Part shown: in pieces, positions 6,282 through 17,301 of the stretch
Numbering within the stretch: position 1 is the stretch's first letter
Layout: the number at the start of each line of letters is the position of its first letter
Source: Methanomicrobiales archaeon
GTDB lineage: Archaea; Halobacteriota; Methanomicrobia; Methanomicrobiales; JACTUA01
Direction: 5' to 3'
Length of the DNA: 53,077 nucleotides
Assembly: GCA_030019205.1 (NCBI GenBank)
Contig: JASEFH010000019.1
Span: forward strand, 1 to 53,077
The notes under the pieces: model-generated
The model's input: only the letters and a program-made list of their open reading frames with translations
Database searches by the model: none
Told to the model about the DNA's origin: nothing
Position numbers and translations under genes: made by a program

Positions 6282-6770
6282 ATGCTGGATGTTGTGGCGC
6301 GAATTTTTATCGCGTCTGCCGTCTGCTGGCTCATTTTCGTTCCCATCGACATACTCTTCCGGCTGCCGGAGAAGGGCGGCGTGAGCGGGGCGACGGCGAT
6401 CGGGAGAGCGATCGAGCATGACGGCGGGGCGCTCGCCGGCGGCTACATGATGGGCAACATCGTCTCGTCACCGGACGCCTCCGCCGGAACCCTGCTGGCG
6501 TCCATCGGCGTCTATATCGCCGGCATCCCCGGCGGGCTCTTTGCCGCCCTCCTGGTCTACATCGGAAACCGCATCTGCCATGATCCCGGCTATGCCGGCA
6601 CCACGGGGGCGATCGCCGCCACCTTCGCCGTCTTCGGGTTCACCCAGATCGGGTTTCTGGCATCGGACTTCATCGCGGGGATGGTGATCGCCATCCTGAC
6701 CATCCAGGGCATCTCGCACGTGCATGCCAGCAGTATCCTGGCGCGTCTGTGGAGCGTGAGGCGCGGATGA
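6282..6770 (+). CDS. ehaB: energy-converting hydrogenase A subunit EhaB
   Basis: 162 residues, almost entirely membrane: an N-terminal hydrophobic helix (ARIFIASAVCWLIFVPIDI) and further segments around residues 70-95 and 110-145 (FAVFGFTQIGFLASDFIAG). As the first gene of the operon it matches the size and character of EhaB, an integral membrane subunit of the Eha hydrogenase that couples ion flow to ferredoxin reduction with H2. I see no separate EhaA upstream. The end overlaps the next gene by 4 nt (ATGA). The identification depends on gene order and on the diagnostic downstream subunits. Confidence 0.7.
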   Translation: MLDVVARIFIASAVCWLIFVPIDILFRLPEKGGVSGATAIGRAIEHDGGALAGGYMMGNIVSSPDASAGTLLASIGVYIAGIPGGLFAALLVYIGNRICHDPGYAGTTGAIAATFAVFGFTQIGFLASDFIAGMVIAILTIQGISHVHASSILARLWSVRRG

Positions 6771-7024
6771 TCCCCGCAGAACTGTCTCTCGCATTCTGTG
6801 CAGGCATCGCCCTCTTCTCGGCATTCCGCATCGTCCTGGAGAGGAGAACCCTTCGGAAACTCCCGTACCTGAACGTGCTCGGGTTTGCCATCGCGGGATC
6901 GGTTGCCCTGATCGTTCCCCACCCGCTCGCCATCGTCGCGGCGGCTGCCTACTTTGTCGGATCGACTCTCGAGTCCAATGCGATCGCGAGCGCTTACGCC
7001 GGAGGGATAGAGACGCGTGAATGA
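6767..7024 (+). CDS. ehaC: Eha hydrogenase membrane subunit EhaC
   Basis: 85 residues. The ATG overlaps the ehaB stop (ATGA); a GTG at 6749 in frame is less likely. There are three hydrophobic segments: MIPAELSLAFCAGIALFSAF, then LPYLNVLGFAIAGSVALIV, then LAIVAAAAYFVGSTLESNAIA. Size, membrane character and position between EhaB-like and EhaD-like genes fit EhaC. It is likely part of the ion-conducting membrane arm. No catalytic residues are expected or seen. Confidence 0.65.
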   Translation: MIPAELSLAFCAGIALFSAFRIVLERRTLRKLPYLNVLGFAIAGSVALIVPHPLAIVAAAAYFVGSTLESNAIASAYAGGIETRE

Positions 7025-7247
7025 GGGATTCGCTCTCGTCTTCGGCTTCGTCGCCATCCTGGGCGCCGTCGCCGCGATGATCCAGAAGGATCCGTTCGAC
7101 AAACTCGTATCGCTCGGCATCCTCGCAGGCGGCATCGTCCCCTTCATCGTGGATCGGGGCTACCTGGATGTCGCCATCGCGTATGCCCTCATCGTCCCGA
7201 TCGCGACCATCTTTATCCTGCTCGTGTGCCGGAGGGGATGCCCGTGA
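7017..7247 (+). CDS. ehaD: Eha hydrogenase membrane subunit EhaD
   Basis: 76 residues, with a GTG start overlapping ehaC by 8 nt. It is hydrophobic throughout: an N-terminal segment EGFALVFGFVAILGAVAAMI, a short amphipathic piece KDPFDKLVSLGILAGGIVPF, and a C-terminal segment VAIAYALIVPIATIFILLV. The KDPFDKLV-SLG motif resembles MnhB/MbhB-type small antiporter-related subunits. Position and size match EhaD. It is probably one of the small subunits of the membrane arm; translation is coupled to its neighbours by overlaps. Confidence 0.65.
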   Translation: MNEGFALVFGFVAILGAVAAMIQKDPFDKLVSLGILAGGIVPFIVDRGYLDVAIAYALIVPIATIFILLVCRRGCP

Positions 7248-7480
7248 CGGCGGAGTTTCTCCTGGGTCTCGTCATCCTCGGGATCGGGGTGCTCGCCGCC
7301 GTCTTCCCGCGGCCGAAGACCTACGTGAACCGGCTGATCAACCTGGAGATTCCGGCGTTCGGGCTCCTCCTCGTCATGCTCTCCTACGACGAGACCCTCG
7401 CCCTTCTCACCTTCATCGCGGTCACGGCCATCGCCACGTTCGTCCTCGTGCGTGTGATCGAGAGGAGGGAGGCGCCGTGA
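7238..7480 (+). CDS. ehaE: Eha hydrogenase membrane subunit EhaE
   Basis: 80 residues. I chose the ATG at 7238, which follows GGAGG at 7229-7233; a GTG at 7244 (GTGA overlap with the ehaD stop) is an alternative. It resembles an MnhC/NuoK-like small subunit: VTAEFLLGLVILGIGVLAAV, then TYVNRLINLEIPAFGLLLVML, then LALLTFIAVTAIATFVLVRVI. It overlaps both neighbours. The inferred role is in ion translocation within the membrane domain of the hydrogenase. Confidence 0.65.
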   Translation: MPVTAEFLLGLVILGIGVLAAVFPRPKTYVNRLINLEIPAFGLLLVMLSYDETLALLTFIAVTAIATFVLVRVIERREAP

Positions 7481-7926
7481 TCGTCCGCCGCATATCGGAG
7501 GCGATCTCCCGCCTGGAGAACCTGACCGCCGTCTACGCCCTCGTCGTCGTCGCGGTGACGATCGTCGGTCTCGTCACGCTCCCGCTCCTGGAGTACCGGG
7601 GGGACGCCCTCTACCCGAAGGCGATCGATCGGGGGAGCTCGCTCGATCCCTACGACCGCGGGGGCACCCCCTTCAATGCCACCGGGGTGAAGGCCCAGTA
7701 CATCGAGAACTCGCCCTATGCCGGCTATGTCACCGCCTACCTGACGCCCCTCTCGCTCTACATGGCGCAGAGCACGCTTCACATGGGGACGACGATCGTC
7801 TCCCACCCCGGGGGGATCATTGACGAGATCCTCTACAACACACGGGGCCTGGACACCGTCGTGGAGACGAGCATCCTCTTCGCGGCGTTCGCCATCGCAT
7901 CCTACATCTTCCGGAGGAGGGACTGA
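7477..7926 (+). CDS. ehaF: Eha hydrogenase subunit EhaF
   Basis: 149 residues, GTG start in a GTGA overlap with ehaE. An N-terminal membrane helix (AVYALVVVAVTIVGLVTLPLL) and a C-terminal one (VVETSILFAAFAIASYIF) flank a polar, probably extracellular loop of about 85 residues rich in Tyr, Asp and Pro (EYRGDALYPKAIDRGSS). The final segment resembles MbhE/MnhE-type or EhaF subunits. The longer upstream open frame is an overlap artefact. Assigned by length, topology and operon position. Confidence 0.65.
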   Translation: MIVRRISEAISRLENLTAVYALVVVAVTIVGLVTLPLLEYRGDALYPKAIDRGSSLDPYDRGGTPFNATGVKAQYIENSPYAGYVTAYLTPLSLYMAQSTLHMGTTIVSHPGGIIDEILYNTRGLDTVVETSILFAAFAIASYIFRRRD

Positions 7927-7927
7927 C

Positions 7928-8527
7928 ATGGCTGCGGAGTACTCCCTGGGCCTTCTCGTCGCGTTTCTGGGGATCGTGGCAGGATTCTCCGCCCTCGTCC
8001 GGGAGAGAGACGACCTCCACCGCATCCTGCTCACGGACCTCGCAGAGATCCTGGCGCTCGCGGTCATCGCCCTGATCGCGACGGACCTCGCAGAAGCCCT
8101 CATCCTGCCCGGACTGGTCGTGGGAATCTCCGAGCTGATGGCGGTCTCCGAGGTCTACATTCTGCGGGAAGGGCTGACGAGGCAGCCGGAGCAGCGGGTG
8201 CGGATCGAGGTGATGGAGAGCGCACCCCCCATCATCGCCGTCATCCTCGTCGGCTACGGGATCGTGCTCTCCGGGTTCTCGGGAGGAGCGGTCGCCGCTC
8301 TCGGAGTGATCTTCTACTTCCTGTGCCGCGGGCACCGCGAGCGGTTCCACGCGATCGAGGTGGCGAGCGGCTATGCCTGGGCGATCTGGATCCTCGCCTT
8401 CTTCGTCTTCATGCTCCTGCCCGCCTACTGGTTCTTCGCCGTGATGATCGCGGGAGGGGCGATCCTCCTCAAGGTGATGGCGAAGATGGCGCTCGTCGGG
8501 ACCATGCGGGGTGGATCGAATGTTTGA
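7928..8527 (+). CDS. ehaG: Eha hydrogenase membrane subunit EhaG
   Basis: 199 residues, ATG one base after the ehaF stop. About six hydrophobic segments (EYSLGLLVAFLGIVAGFSAL; DLAEILALAVIALIATDL; PPIIAVILVGYGIVLSGFSG; GYAWAIWILAFFVFMLLPAYW). Lengths and order agree with EhaG, an integral membrane subunit of the ion-translocating arm. The end overlaps the next gene by 8 nt. Function within the complex is inferred from context. Confidence 0.65.
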   Translation: MAAEYSLGLLVAFLGIVAGFSALVRERDDLHRILLTDLAEILALAVIALIATDLAEALILPGLVVGISELMAVSEVYILREGLTRQPEQRVRIEVMESAPPIIAVILVGYGIVLSGFSGGAVAALGVIFYFLCRGHRERFHAIEVASGYAWAIWILAFFVFMLLPAYWFFAVMIAGGAILLKVMAKMALVGTMRGGSNV

Positions 8528-9188
8528 GCTCCCCGGGGCGGCCATCGGTGGCCGCGAGATCCTGGTGCTGGAGTTCGGCGACATTGTGGACTACTTCACG
8601 CCCTATACCGCGTGCCTCTTCGCGTTCGCCCTGGTATTCACGCTCCTCGTCATCCTGGCCCGCCCCGAGCGCCAGGTGGACATCGCGTTCGGCGGCGACG
8701 CCTACTACACCAAGGAGGTCCAGGAGAAGGAGTTCCGGTTCCAGCGGTTCATGGCGATCGCCTGCGGGTTTGCCACCATGGGTGCGATGGCGAGCGGGGA
8801 TGTCTTCAACTTCACCCTCTTCACGTCCATGATCGGGATCACGAACATCGGCATCGTCGCCGCTTACCGGATCCGCCACGTGCTGGACGCCGCGTTCCAG
8901 TACGGCATCGTCGCCATGGTCGCCACCGTCCCCCTCTTCGGGGGGGCGGCGATCACCCTGGCGACCACCGGAACCCTGAGCCTGTGGGAGCTCTACCGGA
9001 GCGCTGTCGAGGTGCCCCTCATCGCCAGGGCCTTCCTGGTGCTCGGGGTGATGGGGGAGGGGATGGCGCCGTTCTACATCGCCAAGGCGGAGATCACCCG
9101 GGCGCCCGGCGCCCCCTTCATCCTGATGATCCACGTCAGTTCGCTCCTGATATTCCTGCGGGTCGTCGAGATTGTCGTATCGATGTGA
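8520..9188 (+). CDS. ehaH: Eha hydrogenase antiporter-like subunit EhaH
   Basis: 222 residues from the ATG at 8520, which follows GGGGTG at a good distance; a GTG at 8511 would add three residues. It contains pieces of a proton-antiporter (MrpD/NuoN-like) fold in shortened form: FQRFMAIACGFATMGAMASGDVFNFTLF, TNIGIVAAYRIRHVLDAAFQYG, and FLVLGVMGEGMAPFYIAKAEITRAP, with a charged residue inside a helix (GVMGEGMAPF). The family member EhaH has about this size. It is likely the main ion-translocating subunit. Confidence 0.7.
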   Translation: MFELPGAAIGGREILVLEFGDIVDYFTPYTACLFAFALVFTLLVILARPERQVDIAFGGDAYYTKEVQEKEFRFQRFMAIACGFATMGAMASGDVFNFTLFTSMIGITNIGIVAAYRIRHVLDAAFQYGIVAMVATVPLFGGAAITLATTGTLSLWELYRSAVEVPLIARAFLVLGVMGEGMAPFYIAKAEITRAPGAPFILMIHVSSLLIFLRVVEIVVSM

Positions 9189-9193
9189 GGGAA

Positions 9194-9397
9194 ATGAAGA
9201 AGAAGAACGCACGTACGCTGGCGATCGGTTCGGGCATCGCCTGCCTGGGTGCAGCGGCCTCCGGAGCGCTGCCGCCGCTCCCGCCATGGGCCGCGGCGAT
9301 CGCGCTCGTTTGCACGTTCCCGCTGTTCGTCGCCTCGCTCGGGCTGTGGTGGAGCGCGGAGGAGGGGGAGGACGACATCCCCTTCGTGGGGTACTGA
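9194..9397 (+). CDS. ehaI: Eha hydrogenase small membrane subunit EhaI
   Basis: 67 residues. Two hydrophobic helices (TLAIGSGIACLGAAASGAL and AAAIALVCTFPLFVASLGLW) are followed by an acidic tail (SAEEGEDDIPFVGY). The ATG follows GAGGGAA. Size and position between EhaH and the NuoH-like EhaJ fit EhaI. Nothing in the sequence gives a specific function; it is presumably an accessory subunit of the membrane arm. Confidence 0.6.
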   Translation: MKKKNARTLAIGSGIACLGAAASGALPPLPPWAAAIALVCTFPLFVASLGLWWSAEEGEDDIPFVGY

Positions 9398-9398
9398 C

Positions 9399-10241
9399 AT
9401 GATCGGATACCTCCTCTCCGCCACGCTCCTCGGGCTGCTCTTCCACGGCATCCACCGCAAGGTGATCGCGCGGATCCAGGGCAGGCCCGGCCCGCCGGTC
9501 TGGCAGGAGATCCTGCACACCCTGAAGTTCTCCTTCAAGCAGACGTGGATCCCGAAGACCGCCAGCCAGTCGCTCTTTGTCGCGGTGGTGCTGGTGGCGA
9601 TCGCGATCTGGAGCGCCTCCCTCTTCGTCCTCCTCGCCTCGGGGAGCATCCTGCTGCTGTTCGGGTTCTATATGCTCCACAAGATCGTGGAGCACGGGCT
9701 GGGGCTCTCCTCCGGCTCCCCCTACGGCAAGTTCGGCGCGATCCGCTCGGTGATGACCGCCGCCTCGGAGATCCCGCTCTTCGCCACCATCGGGGCGATC
9801 TACCTCTTCACGGGATCGCTGATGCTCTCCGAGATCCTCGCCTACCAGGCGGCGCACGGCCCCCTCCTGCTCATCGCGCCCCCGGCCGCCCTGGCCATGT
9901 ACCTGGTCCTCCTCTCGAAGATGCACTACAGTCCGTTTGCCGTCATCGAGGCGAAGGAGATCGTGAGCGGGAACAGGACGGAGCACTTCGGGGTCTGGAG
10001 GGCGGGGCTCGAGGTGGGGTTCGCCCTCAAGACGTTCGTGCTGCTCTACGCCTTCACCCTGATCTTCATCGGGAGCCTGCCCGCATGGGCGGCGCTGCTC
10101 GTCATGCTCCTGATCCTGCTCTCGCTCTCGTTCGTCTGCGCCCTCACCCCGATGCTCTCCCCCTACGATACCGTCACCGTCCAGCTCCTGGCGACCGCCG
10201 GGATCGTCGTCTACGCCCTGGTGCTGGGGGTGATCTTTTGA
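9399..10241 (+). CDS. ehaJ: Eha hydrogenase NuoH-like membrane subunit EhaJ
   Basis: 280 residues; the NuoH/EchB-like subunit that joins the hydrogenase module to the membrane. Family signatures are near the N-terminus ([22 protein letters not shown], the GRPGP turn typical of NuoH) and in the middle ([35 protein letters not shown], corresponding to the conserved E-A-E/K-E-I-V-x-G loop). About eight membrane segments. ATG one nt after the ehaI stop. The TGA overlaps the TTG start of the next gene. Confidence 0.8.
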
Positions 10242-10486
10242 GCCTGCTCCGCGTGGCGCTCGCCATCGCAGCCCTGATCTACGGGATCCTTGCCGTGCTG
10301 CAGTTCGTGGACAATACCGCCCTCCGGATCCAGACCATCGGCGTGCTGGGGCTGCTCGCCTTCGCCGCGGCGGTCTCGTGGGGGAGCGACGAGCACCGCC
10401 TGAAGGCCTGCGAGATGGCGATCCTCTGGCTCGCCGTCCTGCTCTTCGCGGCATACACCGCGTTGAAACTGGCGGGGGTGGTGTGA
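10238..10486 (+). CDS. small membrane subunit of Eha hydrogenase (EhaK/EhaL position)
   Basis: 82 residues from a TTG start (10238) overlapping the ehaJ stop, with GGGGGTGAT just upstream; no ATG or GTG is available near the beginning. Three hydrophobic segments: [61 protein letters not shown]. By position between EhaJ and EhaM it corresponds to EhaK or EhaL. I cannot tell which from sequence, so no symbol is given. The likely role is structural in the membrane arm. Confidence 0.55.
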
Positions 10487-10873
10487 TTGGAGTTCCTGTA
10501 CGAGAAGGATCTGCGCGGCATGCAGCTCAACATCCTCACCAGCTTGCGCCACGACTGGACCGTCGCCGAGATCGCCCGCCGCTACGGCATCGAGAAGCAG
10601 CGGCTGCGGAGGCTGATGATGGAGAGGCTCGACATGATCCTCCTGGAGAATCTGCCGGCGCGCTACGAAGCCTGGCTCGCCCTGGGCGATCCGGGGGGTG
10701 CGGTGGAGAGGCGACTGGGGGAGGAGCTGCTCACGCGCTACGTTCCCCTGCTGGATTCGCCGTCCATGCGGTATATCGTATCGGAGGCGAAAAGATCCAT
10801 CGCGAACGGTCTCTCCGAAGAGCGGGCCGTCGCATCCGCCATCGAAAAAGTTCGGGAGGTGCTCTCTGCATGA
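10487..10873 (+). CDS. ehaM: Eha hydrogenase soluble subunit EhaM (DUF1959-like)
   Basis: 128 residues, no membrane segment. It reads as an all-helical protein: [21 protein letters not shown], then a helix-turn-helix-like piece [27 protein letters not shown], later [26 protein letters not shown]. Position before the small subunit and its length fit EhaM (DUF1959). It starts at a TTG (10487) directly after the upstream stop, with GGGGGTGGTG as ribosome site; this is the second TTG start in a row. Stop and next start overlap (ATGA). Its role in the complex is not known; it is probably a peripheral cytoplasmic subunit. Confidence 0.65.
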
Positions 10874-11325
10874 GCCTCCTTCAGGATATCAAGAATACCG
10901 TTCGTCGTAAGTCCATCCACGTCTGCTACGTCAACGTCGGGTCCTGCAACGGCTGCGACATCGAAGTCCTCGCCATGCTGGCGCCCCGCTACGACATCGA
11001 GCAGTACGGCATCTACGTGCACAACAACCCGCGGGAGGCGGACGTGCTCCTGGTGACCGGTGCGGTCACTCCCCAGTGGGAGGACAAGCTGCTCTCGATC
11101 TGGAACAAGATCCCCGAGCCCAAGGCGGCGATCGCCGTCGGGAACTGCCCCATCTCCGGCTGCGTCTTCAACCGCCGGGGCTCGTACGTGGATCCGCCCG
11201 TATCGAAGCACATCCCCGTTGCCGCGGAGGTGCCCGGCTGCCCGCCGCGCCCGACGGAGCTCCTGAACGCGATCCTCTCGCTCGCCCCGGCGATCTTCCG
11301 GGACTTCGAGGAGAAGAGGCGATGA
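10870..11325 (+). CDS. ehaN: Eha [NiFe] hydrogenase small subunit EhaN
   Basis: 151 residues; the small subunit that carries the proximal [4Fe-4S] cluster next to the NiFe site. Cluster ligands are visible: C26-x2-C29 in [10 protein letters not shown], a third Cys in [10 protein letters not shown], and a fourth in PGCPPRPTE. This matches the NuoB/EchC-like family with its CxxC, C and CPxxP pattern. The protein lacks a Tat signal, as expected for a cytoplasm-facing group 4 hydrogenase. ATG overlaps the ehaM stop. Confidence 0.88.
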
Positions 11326-12407
11326 AGAAGACCGTGGACGTCTCGCTGCCGCTGGGGCCGCTGCACCCCTGCTTCAAGGAGCCTGCGCGGCTGAAGTGCG
11401 AGACCCGGGGCGAGTCCGTGGTGCGCACCGAGGTGGAACTCGGCTACGTCAAGAAGGGCATCGAGCGGATCATGCGGGGGCGGCCCTGGCAGGAGGTGAT
11501 GTTCCTGGCCGAACGGATCTGCGGCATCTGCTCCGTCATCCACAACATGGTGTACATCGAGGCGGTGGAGGAGATCAGCGGCATCGCTGTCCCCGACCGG
11601 GCCGCCTACCTGCGCGTCATCGTGAACGAGCTCGACCGGATCCAGAGCCACATCCTGGCGAACTTCTCCTACTGCTACACGATCGAGCACGAGACGCTGG
11701 CGATGTACCTCTTGAACCTCCGCGAGACGGCGATGGACGAGCTGGAGCGGGTCACGGGCGCGCGCGTCACCTGCTCCTACATGGTGCCCGGCGGCGTGCG
11801 GTTTGACCTCGCGGAAGAAGATGCGGCGGCGCTGCGGCAGGGTCTCGACCACATCGAGACGGAGCTCGAGCGGTTCGTGCGGATGTTCCGCGACGGTCCC
11901 CTGATCGCCCTCCGCAGCCGCGGGATCGGCATCCTCACCCCAGAGGACGCGCGTGTCGCCCACGCCGTGGGGCCGACGGCCCGGGCCAGCGGGATCGCCG
12001 TCGACCTGCGGACGGAGCATCCGACCTACCGCAGGCTCGGATTCGCCCCCGTCACCCGCACCGGGGGGGACAACTACGCCCGCACCATGCTGCGGTTCGA
12101 CGAGGTCGCCCAGAGCATCGGGCTGATCCGCCGCTGCCTGGACGAGATGCAGCCCGGCCCCGTGCGGGGCGGGGGTGAGGTGCGGGGCGGCGAGGCGCGC
12201 CATGCGGGGGAGGCGCCCCGGGGTGAGCTCACCTACTACGTGAAGACGGACGACCATGGCAGGATCGCGGAGATCGCCGTGCGGACGCCCTCCATCATGA
12301 ACATCGAGGCCTGCACCCACTTCATGCTCCGGGGCGTCCTCTCGGCAGCGGACATCACGTCCACGTTCATCAGTTCCGACCCCTGCGTCGCCTGCACGGA
12401 GCGGTAG
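11322..12407 (+). CDS. ehaO: Eha [NiFe] hydrogenase large subunit EhaO
   Basis: 361 residues; catalytic subunit binding the NiFe centre, reacting with H2. The four Ni ligands are visible: C67 and C70 in [11 protein letters not shown], and C355 and C358 in DPCVACTER at the very end. Ending on DPCxxCTER means no C-terminal extension for a maturation protease to remove, as seen in other Ech/Eha-type enzymes. The NuoD-like body contains HPCFKEP, LNRIQSH-like [13 protein letters not shown], and GPTARASG. One unusual Gly/Arg/Glu-rich insertion ([19 protein letters not shown]) lies near residues 280-300. ATG overlaps the ehaN stop. Confidence 0.93.
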
Positions 12408-12409
12408 GG

Positions 12410-13012
12410 ATGGTCCGGTCGATCCTCTGGTACCTGAAGGAGTTCCTGCGGCGGGAGTGGCTGACCAAGTTTTTCTTTGCCAGGACAGCTCCTCTTGCCG
12501 CCCCGCCCCACTTCCGGGACTTCCCGGCGCTGACCGGCAGGGAGTGCACGCACTGTCTGCTCTGCATGATGATCTGCCCCGCGCCGGGGGCGATCGAGGT
12601 CAGGAAGACGGCGAACGGATGGGAGCCGCGGATATCCCCGGGCCACTGCATCCGATGCGGGCTCTGCGTGGAGGTCTGCACCGAGGACGTCCTCTCCTCG
12701 GGCCGAATCCTGGAGGTCCGCCGCCGCGACCGCAGCGGCTTCCGCACACGGTTCCACATCCACGTCGATCCGGAGCGCTGCATGAAGTGCGGCAACTGCG
12801 TCGTCTCCTGCCCGGTCAACAAGGAGATCGACCCCGAGATCGCGTACGGGGGGCACAGCGCCAGCGACGAAGTGATCATGCGCATCGAGCAGGGGCAGCA
12901 CCGCATCCTGCATCCGGAGAAGACGACGGGGTGCAGGACGTGCGAGAATACGTGCCCGAACGGTGCGATCCGGGTGGAGCGGATCCTGGAGCCCGTCCAG
13001 GAGGGGGCATAG
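12410..13012 (+). CDS. polyferredoxin of the Eha/Fwd operon (EhaP-like)
   Basis: 200 residues with four iron-sulfur motifs: CTHCLLCMMICP (near residue 46), CIRCGLCVEVCTED (near 81), CMKCGNCVVSCPVN (near 124), and a shorter TGCRTCENTCPNGAI near the C-terminus. The first three have four Cys each, so three [4Fe-4S] clusters are clear; the fourth motif may take a Cys from elsewhere. The N-terminus (LWYLKEFLRREWLTKFFF) resembles NuoI/EchF-type subunits that contact the membrane part. It sits between ehaO and fwdD and could pass electrons from the hydrogenase to the formylmethanofuran dehydrogenase. It could also be named EhaP. Confidence 0.8.
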   Translation: MVRSILWYLKEFLRREWLTKFFFARTAPLAAPPHFRDFPALTGRECTHCLLCMMICPAPGAIEVRKTANGWEPRISPGHCIRCGLCVEVCTEDVLSSGRILEVRRRDRSGFRTRFHIHVDPERCMKCGNCVVSCPVNKEIDPEIAYGGHSASDEVIMRIEQGQHRILHPEKTTGCRTCENTCPNGAIRVERILEPVQEGA

Positions 13013-13013
13013 C

Positions 13014-13403
13014 ATGCGTCTCCTGCTGAACACCGCGCGGACCGTGCGGCAGGGGGATTCGGTCGAGTTCAAGTACGCACCAGGCTATCGCGAGGCGACC
13101 TCCGTCTGTGCGATGCACGAGCTCGACATGCTGGAGCTCGGGGTCGTGCCGGGCGGGAACGTGCGCGTGCGGAACGGTGCGGGCGAGGTGGTGCTGCGCC
13201 TGGTCGAACGGGACGACGCGGAGCGGGGGACCCTCTTCGTGCCCTACGGACCCTACGCCAACTGTCTCATACCGGCAGAGACGCACGGGACGGGCATGCC
13301 GGACTTCAAGCTGGTCTGGGTGGACGTGGAGCCGACGGACGATGAGCGGTCGACCGTCGGCGAGCTGATGGGGAGCCTGGGGGGTGTTCCCTACGATTCA
13401 TAG
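13014..13403 (+). CDS. fwdD: formylmethanofuran dehydrogenase subunit D
   Basis: 129 residues; the molybdopterin-dinucleotide-binding domain that completes the tungsto/molybdopterin site of FwdB. Recognisable from LLLNTARTVRQGDSVEFKY at the N-terminus and VPPGGNVRV-like GVVPGGNVRVRNGAGEVVLR and the C-terminal FVPYGPYANCLIPAETHGTGMPDFK, all typical of FwdD/FmdD. The start ATG follows the polyferredoxin stop by one base. The 3' end overlaps fwdB by 20 nt, so translation is coupled. The sequence alone does not distinguish the tungsten from the molybdenum isoenzyme. Confidence 0.9.
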   Translation: MRLLLNTARTVRQGDSVEFKYAPGYREATSVCAMHELDMLELGVVPGGNVRVRNGAGEVVLRLVERDDAERGTLFVPYGPYANCLIPAETHGTGMPDFKLVWVDVEPTDDERSTVGELMGSLGGVPYDS

Positions 13404-14682
13404 AGACGTCGTCTGCACCTTCTGCGGCTGCCTCTGCGACGATCTGGAGGTGACCGTCGAGGGCGGGCGGATCCGGGGGGTGGACAACGCCTGCGAGCTC
13501 GGGGCGCACAAGTTCACCACCGAGGGGCGGCTGAAGGCTCCGATCCGCCGCCGAGGGGGGGTCTGGGGGGAGGAGACCTATACCGCCGCCATCGAGCGGG
13601 CAGCGGAGATCCTGCTGGATGCCGATCGCCCCCTGCTCTACGGCTGGAGCGGCACATGCGGGGAGGCCCAGAGCGTTGGCGTCCAGCTGGCGGAGATCCT
13701 GGGCGGGGTGATCGACGCAACCACGTCGGTCTGCCACGGCACCTCGATCCTTGCGATCCAGGAGGTGGGTCACCCGGGATGCACGCTCGGGCAGGTGAAG
13801 AACCGCGCCGACGTGATCCTCTACTGGGGCTGCAACCCCATCGAGGCCCATCCGCGGCACATGAGCCGCTACACCACCTATACTGACGGGTTCTTCCTGG
13901 GGAACTCGCACCGCGACAGAACCGTGATCGTGGTGGATATCCGCAGGACCGATACCGCGCAGGTGGCTGACGAGTTCATAAAGATAAAGCCCGGCGGGGA
14001 TTACGCCGTGCTCTCCGCCCTCCGCGCGATGGTGAGGGGAAAAGATGACATGATCCCCCCCACGGTGAGCGGTGTCTCCCGTCAGCAACTGCGGCGGGTC
14101 GCCGCGATCTGCAAGTCCGCACAGTACGGCGCCCTCTTCTTCGGCATGGGGCTGACGCAGACGGGCGGTAAATACAAGAACATCCGCAACGCGATCGAGC
14201 TCGTGGACGAGCTGAACCGCCATACCAAGTTCACGCTGACGCCGATGCGGGGTCACTTCAACGTCTACGGGTTCAACGAGGTCTGCACCTGGATGACGGG
14301 ATACCCCTTTGCCGTGGACTTTTCGCGGGGCATCGCCTGGTACAACCCCGGCGAGACGAGCGCCGTCGATCTCCTGGCCCGGCGGGAGTGCGACGCCTGC
14401 CTGGTGGTGGCGAGCGATCCGGCGGCCCATCTTCCCCGCTCGGCCGTGGCGCATCTCGCCGATATTCCGCTGGTGCAGCTCGATCCCTATCCCAATGCGA
14501 CCACCGCCTTCGCCGAGATCCAGATACCGGTCGCCGTGACCGGCATCGATGCCGAGGGGACCGCCTACCGCATGGACGGTGTGCCCATCCGCACGCGGAA
14601 GATCCTGGACCTGGGGTATCCCGACGACCGCACCGTCCTGCAGCAGATGCTCGAGCGGATCCGGGAGGCGAAAGGGAGATGA
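13384..14682 (+). CDS. fwdB: formylmethanofuran dehydrogenase subunit B (catalytic)
   Basis: 432 residues; it reduces CO2 to formate at a tungsto- or molybdopterin centre in the first step of methanogenesis. A GTG start at 13384 lies inside fwdD. The N-terminal [4Fe-4S] site is C11-x2-C14-x3-C18 with a later Cys near residue 37. The metal-ligand Cys is C117 in TTSVCHGTS; in some methanogens this is selenocysteine, here it is a normal Cys codon. Other signatures are WGCNPIEAHPRHMSRY and GGDYAVLSALRAM. The stop overlaps the fwdA start (ATGA). Confidence 0.93.
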   Translation: MFPTIHRDVVCTFCGCLCDDLEVTVEGGRIRGVDNACELGAHKFTTEGRLKAPIRRRGGVWGEETYTAAIERAAEILLDADRPLLYGWSGTCGEAQSVGVQLAEILGGVIDATTSVCHGTSILAIQEVGHPGCTLGQVKNRADVILYWGCNPIEAHPRHMSRYTTYTDGFFLGNSHRDRTVIVVDIRRTDTAQVADEFIKIKPGGDYAVLSALRAMVRGKDDMIPPTVSGVSRQQLRRVAAICKSAQYGALFFGMGLTQTGGKYKNIRNAIELVDELNRHTKFTLTPMRGHFNVYGFNEVCTWMTGYPFAVDFSRGIAWYNPGETSAVDLLARRECDACLVVASDPAAHLPRSAVAHLADIPLVQLDPYPNATTAFAEIQIPVAVTGIDAEGTAYRMDGVPIRTRKILDLGYPDDRTVLQQMLERIREAKGR

Positions 14683-16379
14683 CCGAACTGCTGATCCGCA
14701 ACGCCTGCGTGATCGATCCCATCAACGGCATCCGGGGGGAGACGATGGATATCCTGATCCGGGACGCCCGCATCGTGGAGTCGGTGAGCGGCCGTGCGGA
14801 GGTGATCGATGCCGCGGGATGCCTCACGCTCCCCGGCGGCATCGACTCGCATACGCATATCTGCGGCACCAAGGTGAACTTCGGGCGTTACATGATGCCG
14901 GAGGACATGCGGGCCGGGAGGACGGCGCGGCAGGGGGGGATGCACGCCACTTCGGGCTACAGCGTGCCCACCACCTTCGGGAACAGCTACCGTTACAGCG
15001 CGATGGGATACACGACCGTGCTGGAGGGCGCCATGGCCCCCCTCGAGGCGCGGCACACCCACGAGGAGTTCTCCGCGACGCCCCTCCAGGACACGATGGC
15101 GAACACGCTCTTCGACGGCAACTGGGCGGTGATGGAGGCGGTGAAGGAGAACGACGTGAAGAGAGCCGCCGCGATCGTCGGCTGGACGCTCTCCGCCGTC
15201 AAGGGGTTTGCCATCAAGCTGACCAACCCCGGCGGAACCGAGGCCTGGGGCTGGGGGAAGAACGTGGAGTGCATCCACGATCCGGTCCCCCACTTCGAGG
15301 TGAGCCCGATCGAGATCGTCACCGCCCTGGTGCGGGCGAACGAGCTCCTGCACCTCCCGCACTCCGTCCACCTGCACTGCAACCGCCTGGGCGTGCCGGG
15401 GAACGCCTGGTGCACGGTGGACACCTTCCGCCACATCCCCGACCTGAACCCGGAGCGGCAGAGCCTCTACGCCACCCATGTCCAGTTCCACGCCTACGGG
15501 GGCTCGTCCTGGAAGGACATCTGCTCCCGCGCGGATCTGGTCGCCCGTGCCGTGAACGACCGCCCCCAGATCGTCATGGACATGGGGCAGGTGATGTTCG
15601 GGAAGACGACGACGATGACGGCGGACGGGCCGATGGAGTTCAACCTCTACCGCCTCCACCACAACAAGTGGTCCAACCACGACGTGGAGCTGGAGACGGG
15701 TTCGGGGATCATCCCCGTCTACTACAGCCGGAAGAGCACGGTGAACTGCGTCATGTGGGCGGTGGGCCTCGAACTCGCCCTCCTGACCCGCAGCCCCTGG
15801 CAGTGCCTCCTCGCAACGGACAACCCCAACGGCGCCCCCTTCGTGAAGTACCCCGAGATCATCGGGCTCCTCATGAGCAGGAAGTACCGGGACGCGGAAC
15901 TCGCCACCCTCCATCCCGAAGCGGAGCGCCGCATCGCACTGCCGGCGATCGACCGCGAACTGGACTGGAACGAGATCGCCGTGATGACGCGAGCCGGGCA
16001 GGCGAAGGCGCTGGGTCTTCTCCCCCTCGGCAAGGGGCACCTCGGGCCCGGGGCCGCGGCGGACCTCGCCATCTACCCCGTCCGCATCGGGGAGATCGAT
16101 CCCTCGGCCGAGTACCGCAGGGTGATCGAGGGGTTCCGGCAGACCCTCTATACCGTAAAGCGGGGGCGGGTGGTGAGCCGCGAGGGAAGGGTCGTCGTGG
16201 AGGGCGACAACAGCACCATCTGGGTGAAGCCCCGCATATCCGAGGAGTACGACATGGGGCGGGATCCGGAGTTTGCGAAGAAGTTCGCCCGCTACTACAC
16301 GGTGCGGATGGGCAACTACCCCGTGCAGGAGGCGTACATCAGGAGGAGCATCTGCATCGAGACGGAGGCGGAGCTATGA
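14679..16379 (+). CDS. fwdA: formylmethanofuran dehydrogenase subunit A (amidohydrolase)
   Basis: 566 residues; the dinuclear zinc amidohydrolase that condenses the formate made by FwdB with methanofuran. The amidohydrolase motifs are visible: GIDSHTHICG (H58, H60), GFAIKLTNPGG with the Lys expected to be carboxylated (K180), VHLHCNRLG for the metal His, and LATDNPNGAPF with the catalytic Asp. The start at 14679 overlaps fwdB by 4 nt; an open frame extends upstream but inside fwdB. The length agrees with the family (about 570). Confidence 0.94.
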   Translation: MTELLIRNACVIDPINGIRGETMDILIRDARIVESVSGRAEVIDAAGCLTLPGGIDSHTHICGTKVNFGRYMMPEDMRAGRTARQGGMHATSGYSVPTTFGNSYRYSAMGYTTVLEGAMAPLEARHTHEEFSATPLQDTMANTLFDGNWAVMEAVKENDVKRAAAIVGWTLSAVKGFAIKLTNPGGTEAWGWGKNVECIHDPVPHFEVSPIEIVTALVRANELLHLPHSVHLHCNRLGVPGNAWCTVDTFRHIPDLNPERQSLYATHVQFHAYGGSSWKDICSRADLVARAVNDRPQIVMDMGQVMFGKTTTMTADGPMEFNLYRLHHNKWSNHDVELETGSGIIPVYYSRKSTVNCVMWAVGLELALLTRSPWQCLLATDNPNGAPFVKYPEIIGLLMSRKYRDAELATLHPEAERRIALPAIDRELDWNEIAVMTRAGQAKALGLLPLGKGHLGPGAAADLAIYPVRIGEIDPSAEYRRVIEGFRQTLYTVKRGRVVSREGRVVVEGDNSTIWVKPRISEEYDMGRDPEFAKKFARYYTVRMGNYPVQEAYIRRSICIETEAEL

Positions 16380-17152
16380 TGCGGGTGCTCCTGGTGGCAA
16401 AACCGCGGAAGAAGCCCAATATTCCCATCGAAGCGGAGCGCATCCTCCCCCGCACGTTCCTCGAGGGCGATGAGTTCACCGTCTTCGAGGGGAACAAGGA
16501 GCGGCGGCTCACCGACCTCTTCTCGGTCTCCATCGAGGGTGAGGCGCGGGACGTCTCGGAGGTGGAGGTGATCCTCCGCGGGGACGTATCGCGCGTCAAG
16601 CGCATCGGGGAGTACATGGACGGGGGGTGCATCCTGATCGAGGGTTCCGTGGGGATGCACTGCGGTAACTTCATGAGCGGCGGCACGATCGAGATCGGCG
16701 GGAACGCGGACCACTGGCTCGCCCGCGAGCTCCAGGGGGGGACGGTGATCTGCCACGGGGACGCCGCCCACTACCTGGCATCCGGCTACCGCGGGGAGAA
16801 GCACGGCATGCGGGGCGGCACCGTCATCGTCCACGGGAATGCGGGGGACTTCGCGGCTGAATACCTCGCGGGCGGATCGGTCACCATCCACGGCAGTGCC
16901 GGGGACATGGCCGGTGTGGAGATGAAGGGCGGGGAGCTCGTCATCGGCGGCGACTGCTACCGCCCCTGCGGCAACATGACGGGCGGCACGTGCACCGTGC
17001 ACGGAACGGCCCATAACCTGCTCCCCACGTTCCGGAAGATCCGCACCGCTCCGCTGACGGCGGGAGGGCCGCCGTACGCCGTTTTCGAGGGGGATATCGC
17101 CAACAGAGGAAAGGGAACCCTTTTTATACGGAACTACCGATATATGGATTGA
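16376..17152 (+). CDS. fwdC: formylmethanofuran dehydrogenase subunit C
   Basis: 258 residues; a scaffold subunit with a right-handed beta-helix like the glutamate synthase GltB C-terminal domain. The repeats are plain to see: GGCILIEGSVGMHCGNFMSGG, GGTVICHGDAAHYLASGYRG, GGTVIVHGNAGDFAAEYLAGG, GSVTIHGSAGDMAGVEMKGG, GGTCTVHGTAHNLLPTF. Starts with two Met codons, the first overlapping the fwdA stop. FwdF and FwdG, the usual polyferredoxin subunits, do not follow; a zinc-ribbon gene overlaps the stop instead. Confidence 0.92.
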   Translation: MMRVLLVAKPRKKPNIPIEAERILPRTFLEGDEFTVFEGNKERRLTDLFSVSIEGEARDVSEVEVILRGDVSRVKRIGEYMDGGCILIEGSVGMHCGNFMSGGTIEIGGNADHWLARELQGGTVICHGDAAHYLASGYRGEKHGMRGGTVIVHGNAGDFAAEYLAGGSVTIHGSAGDMAGVEMKGGELVIGGDCYRPCGNMTGGTCTVHGTAHNLLPTFRKIRTAPLTAGGPPYAVFEGDIANRGKGTLFIRNYRYMD

Positions 17153-17301
17153 TGCTCAGGCATTCCTGCGGTTTCGAGGCGAACATACACTGCAAGAAGT
17201 GCGGCGGACCGCTCGAGGACCGGGATCGGATCGGGCTCTTCTGCCCCCGCTGCGGGCGGAGGGTGACGGCGGTCTGCCCGGGGTGCGGGAAGCTCTGGTG
17301 A
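17152..17301 (+). CDS. small double zinc-ribbon protein coupled to fwdC
   Basis: 49 residues, too short for most gene finders. The ATG shares its A with the fwdC stop (TGATG), so it is probably translated by coupling. It contains HCKKCGGPL, FCPRCGRRVT and VCPGCGKLW: three CxxC pairs plus one earlier Cys (RHSCGF). A zinc ribbon with one or two metal sites is expected. No function is known. Its place as last gene of the eha-fwd operon suggests a link to assembly or regulation of that operon, but this is inference only. Confidence 0.7.
   Translation: MLRHSCGFEANIHCKKCGGPLEDRDRIGLFCPRCGRRVTAVCPGCGKLW

Follow-up and report, generated by a model that had tools for sequence, protein, structure and literature searches.

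The locus examined here raises the question of why a membrane-bound Eha hydrogenase and a formylmethanofuran dehydrogenase (Fwd) are encoded as one block in a Methanomicrobiales archaeon, and of how electrons might pass between them. The window, the whole stretch of 53,077 nucleotides that was analysed, is one contig (C19) of a genome of 2.73 Mb. Positions 6282-17301 are filled by 19 co-directional ORFs on the + strand with a largest gap of 5 nt: 13 eha genes, a 200-aa ferredoxin gene here called pfd, fwdD, fwdB, fwdA, fwdC and a 50-aa zinc-ribbon gene, as follows.

6282..6770, +, ehaB-like membrane subunit, 162 aa; first gene, place conserved in relatives, no Pfam match
6749..7024, +, ehaC (DUF2109); PF09882 1e-28; ATG at 6767 likely
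7017..7247, +, ehaD (DUF2108); PF09881 1.2e-24
7226..7480, +, ehaE (DUF2107); PF09880 5.8e-29; ATG at 7238 possible
7477..7926, +, ehaF (DUF2106); PF09879 4.7e-56
7928..8527, +, ehaG (DUF2105); PF09878 4.9e-73
8511..9188, +, ehaH, NuoN-related ion-translocation subunit; PF10125 1.2e-94; ATG at 8520 possible
9194..9397, +, ehaI-like small protein, 67 aa; by position and conservation
9399..10241, +, ehaJ, NuoH-like membrane subunit (NADHdh); PF00146 3.4e-29
10238..10486, +, ehaK-like membrane protein, TTG start; by position
10487..10873, +, ehaL/M-like soluble protein, 128 aa, TTG start; DUF1959 0.0024, sub-threshold
10870..11325, +, ehaN, hydrogenase small subunit (Oxidored_q6); PF01058 5.9e-29
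11322..12407, +, ehaO, NiFe hydrogenase large subunit (49-kDa/NiFe); PF00346 1.7e-49, PF00374; both CxxC pairs
12410..13012, +, pfd, short EhaP-type ferredoxin with four [4Fe-4S] motifs; candidate Eha-to-FwdB adaptor
13014..13403, +, fwdD; NF042908 5.9e-28 (below cut-off), PF01568
13384..14682, +, fwdB of the Eha clade, GTG start; TIGR03129 2.8e-181, 603 bits; tree; active-site Cys
14679..16379, +, fwdA; TIGR03121 1.2e-232, 773 bits
16379..17152, +, fwdC; TIGR03122 1.9e-71, 240 bits
17152..17301, +, 50-aa double zinc-ribbon protein; PF12773 2.6e-06

The names ehaB, ehaI and ehaK rest on gene order, not on a model match. The original prediction of at least 17 nearly gapless genes from ehaB to fwdC is borne out by 18 such genes (6282-17152), and its start and extent of the block stand, except that 17301 is the end of the zinc-ribbon ORF, fwdC ending at 17152. 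All 18 junctions measure about -22 to +5 nt, most being overlaps, and this range reflects start-codon choice for ehaE, ehaH, fwdB and fwdC. The sole TATA-like site in the block lies at 17121, 31 nt upstream of the zinc-ribbon gene, which stays beside eha-pfd even at loci without fwd. Scans for sigma-70 promoters and terminators are uninformative for an archaeon.

Profile searches place the hydrogenase in Eha (group 4h), with the ehaB-O core and the DUF2105-2109 membrane subunits. The motifs RICGIC and DPCVAC, the Cys pairs of the NiFe site, are intact in EhaO, as are the Cys ligands of EhaN and the SVCHG and HTH motifs of FwdB and FwdA. FwdA, FwdB and FwdC all exceed the general curated cut-offs (TIGR03121, TIGR03129 and TIGR03122); FwdD scores 97.5 bits over nearly its full length against the tungsten-type model NF042908, whose cut-off is 175, with no match to another curated FwdD model and with Pfam Molydop_binding above cut-off. 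Of the class I gene set, the operon lacks ehaA and ehaQ-T. It also contains no fwdF, fwdG or fwdH, only a FwdG-like half within pfd, so that the Eha-linked Fwd lacks the FwdG/FwdF electron module of its own that Hdr-linked and class I enzymes possess.

The genome also has, on contig C4, a complete operon of fwdG-like, fwdF, hdrC, hdrB, hdrA, mvhD, fwdD, fwdB, fwdA and fwdC genes, which includes the sole strong FwdF of the genome; the Eha-linked Fwd is therefore a second, dedicated copy. The FwdB proteins of the two operons are 50% identical, and a midpoint-rooted tree of 98 such proteins splits them into two deeply diverged groups, an Eha clade of 81 members and an Hdr clade of 17.

EhaF is found in 120 of 150 genomes of the order. 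Among the loci fetched, the complete order eha-pfd-fwdDBAC recurs in 65, distributed over all six sampled families, so the arrangement is not due to chance. In genomes at least 90% complete, Eha-clade FwdB accompanies Eha in all 92 that have it and is absent from 15 of the 16 without it, the sole exception (G051) being explained by a contig that begins inside ehaG (L112); the Fisher value for this co-occurrence ignores shared ancestry and is unfit to be read as a probability. Eha was lost, along with its Fwd, in at least three families, some members having no Eha at all. Functional coupling of Eha with Eha-clade Fwd is thus well supported by their joint gain and loss across genomes. This, together with the conserved operon, agrees with the prediction that Eha is dedicated to a Fwd, an idea already put forward by Anderson 2009 (PMC2686161).

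The gene order, expected to be conserved in relatives, is so in most of the order but not in g7, g12, g14 and g20, four genera of a single family, where the partners still co-occur. Seven complete loci of these genera, plus L069, have eha-pfd without fwd, most of them retaining the zinc ribbon; in five of the genomes with such loci, an Eha-clade fwdDBAC adjoins the hdr-fwd operon in tail-to-tail orientation (L093-L097). Only fwdA and fwdC follow pfd in nine further loci and in L027, whose fwdDB sit upstream. Physical linkage of eha and fwd is dispensable.

Two other arrangements were observed. One genome (G076) has its eha operon split on one contig, with ehaB-H and ehaJ-O-pfd-fwdDBC about 40-45 kb apart (L060 and L108) and no fwdA seen. 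In Methanoculleus and others (L102, L098 and L110) there is a third FwdB type, related to the Eha clade, with a frame of about 590 aa that seemingly includes FwdD and is adjoined by fwdA in some cases.

The ferredoxin Pfd is the best new lead on how the two enzymes might be joined. Residues 1-110 are NuoI/HycF-like, with best matches to HycF, MBS and NuoI, and residues 114-195 are FwdG-like, with best matches to the FwdG chains 9sfi_U (1.7e-15) and 5t5i_G (9.3e-15), the next chain outside Fwd and Mvh following at 7e-5. Against a profile made from 11 FwdG sequences, pfd proteins reach about 37-60 bits (32 for one truncated copy) over almost the full FwdG length, compared with about 150 for true FwdG; the profile ranks them right behind true FwdG and, with few exceptions, above FwdF and HdrA, and gives class I EhaP 26 bits in a different register. 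The AlphaFold model (mean pLDDT 88.7) was aligned by Foldseek to 5t5i_G with a TM of 0.83, 1.9 A and 42% identity. In a ligand-spacing comparison the loops were alike (35-38 in FwdG, median 37 in pfd), but pfd sequences had slipped into its control group, and this is not evidence.

The FwdG-like half is not tied to fwd linkage, since it is kept where fwd has moved away and is present in the outgroup G274, which has no fwd nearby; the latter rules out that this half arose together with the linkage. In G221 the ferredoxin consists of the NuoI-like N-terminal half only, and the Eha genes with this half-length ferredoxin are followed by genes resembling a membrane uptake NiFe hydrogenase (L114). 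Residue 172 of the present pfd, a ligand of cluster 4, is Thr (codon ACG, window positions 12923-12925), whereas the remaining 87 of the 88 sequences have Cys there; no frameshift is involved, and the substitution may be genuine or result from an assembly error. At residue 49 (second Cys of cluster 1), 22 of the 88 sequences have another residue, Glu in a subset of one family and His, Ala, Ser, Gln or Thr in another.

We consider it probable (roughly 0.72) that the operon encodes an ion-gradient-driven Eha and a dedicated Fwd isoenzyme, coupled via Pfd and serving start-up and refilling. Eha would oxidise H2 and spend an inward ion flux on lowering the potential of the electrons, which would pass from EhaN through Pfd to FwdB; there CO2 would be reduced to formate, which FwdA would then condense with methanofuran. 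A connecting role of Pfd between EhaN and FwdB is suggested by its FwdG-like half and by the lack of fwdF and fwdG in the Eha operon, the one strong FwdF belonging to the hdr operon. The N-terminal half would face the hydrogenase and the C-terminal half would stand in for FwdG, the subunit that delivers electrons to FwdB, and because Pfd appears to combine an EhaP-type half with one replacing FwdG, electrons most likely pass directly or between closely docked partners. In solved Fwd, the polyferredoxin FwdF docks onto the electron-transferring subunit G (PMC11656701). Since this route would cost ion gradient, it most likely serves start-up and the replenishment of C1 intermediates, working alongside the bifurcating Hdr-Fwd without replacing it.

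The coupling could take a stronger form. A single physical Eha-Fwd supercomplex, as originally proposed, is plausible, the best, though indirect, evidence being the module architecture of Pfd, whose gene lies between the two gene sets and whose FwdG-like half the original prediction overlooked. Somewhat short of even odds, we would place the idea that Methanomicrobiales have a membrane-bound H2:CO2 reductase driven by an ion gradient, its hydrogenase being connected directly to FwdB by an EhaP-FwdG hybrid ferredoxin; this would be a third type of Fwd electron input besides Hdr/FwdF and F420 reductase. Counted against coupling via Pfd are the dispensable linkage, outgroup G274, the moderate likeness to FwdG among 2[4Fe-4S] modules, the lost ligand in pfd and expression in one Methanoculleus study (PMC12008871), where shaking lowered ehaB and ehaD but brought no differential expression of the Eha-linked fwd.

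The alternative that survives best, and which we regard as a real if lesser possibility, holds that Eha works separately from its Fwd, with a diffusible ferredoxin as the only link between the two enzymes, that the operon serves co-regulation and that Pfd is an ordinary output subunit of Eha. It would accommodate the family whose fwd left for a site beside hdr-fwd while both enzymes were kept, the class I Eha with its EhaP polyferredoxin and no linked fwd, and the half-length ferredoxin of G221. It accounts less well for a C-terminal half closest to FwdG by both sequence and predicted fold, for an Eha operon devoid of fwdF and fwdG, and for the strict co-occurrence of Eha with one FwdB clade.

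That Eha-Fwd is instead the main methanogenic route of CO2 reduction, replacing electron bifurcation, was proposed both in Anderson 2009 and in the original prediction, and we find it unlikely. The conserved linkage and the absence of Mvh from several species (Anderson 2009, PMC2686161) would fit such a role; however, the bifurcating complex of M. hungatei has been solved (7bkb), some members have lost Eha altogether, and an hdrABC-mvhD-fwd operon with fwdF, or failing that an Hdr-clade Fwd, is retained in the source genome and in the closed genomes studied in detail. Nor does Eha-Fwd seem to be the only Fwd of some genomes: apparent single-copy genomes mostly show fragments of Hdr-type FwdB at contig ends, and the closed genomes examined carry both types, G088, G104 and G108 being excepted from this rejection. 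The claim that direct wiring takes the place of an independent anaplerotic role for Eha is not supported, as the second fwdDBAC has its own fwdF and fwdG, which leaves the Eha-linked copy free to play the anaplerotic part. Selfish or neutral linkage can preserve overlapping operons, but the reading of eha-fwd adjacency as a neutral gene-order relic without functional meaning is already disfavoured and very improbable, since the pair was lost jointly in at least three families and both partners were kept where their genes had separated.

The Eha-Fwd linkage itself is already known from Anderson 2009 and Gilmore 2017. The former (PMC2686161) describes Eha adjoining Fmd in three Methanomicrobiales and proposes Eha as the source of the reduced ferredoxin on which Fmd draws; the latter (PMC5563889) reports two Fwd enzymes for Methanocorpusculum parvum, the first associated with Eha and the second with HdrABC, and assigns the Eha-linked copy an intermediate-replenishing (anaplerotic) role. 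The anaplerotic reading is repeated in PMC11346949, and PMC11201294 places Fwd beside several ferredoxin-reducing systems. The present locus has the same gene order (eha...ehaO, ferredoxin, fwdDBAC, as in the 65 complete loci) and the same inferred ferredoxin link as the Eha-Fmd cluster of M. marisnigri, M. labreanum, M. hungatei and Methanocorpusculum parvum; the consulted portions of the two papers do not describe a FwdG-like ferredoxin half, co-loss or the relocation of fwd in one family. A search of literature available without subscription turned up no account of an Eha ferredoxin resembling FwdG.

Among other known systems, the bifurcating Hdr-Fwd supercomplex (M. hungatei 7bkb, and contig C4 here) likewise has a FwdABCD core fed by a FwdG-type ferredoxin, but its electrons come from HdrA/MvhD via FwdF and not from a membrane hydrogenase, and its FwdB is only about 50% identical. 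The F420-reducing formylmethanofuran dehydrogenase of Ca. Ethanoperedens (8rja) likewise joins a Fwd core to a non-FwdF partner via a ferredoxin module and contains the closest solved FwdB to the Eha-linked one (541 bits); its partner is an F420 reductase, whereas here it would be an ion-pumping hydrogenase. The class I EhaA-T operon (Methanothermobacter; L161) likewise runs from ehaB to ehaO with the EhaP ferredoxin directly after ehaO, but that EhaP is longer and not FwdG-like, and fwd is unlinked.

What is new beside the published linkage is the joint gain and loss of both enzymes and a ferredoxin that looks like a built-in electron plug. The either/or reading of Eha function is corrected accordingly: most Eha-bearing members pair a bifurcation Fwd with a second one that serves Eha. 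Should Pfd be a direct plug, very-low-potential, H2-driven CO2 reduction would take place on the membrane without free ferredoxin, and this would explain how these methanogens start and refill the pathway at low H2.
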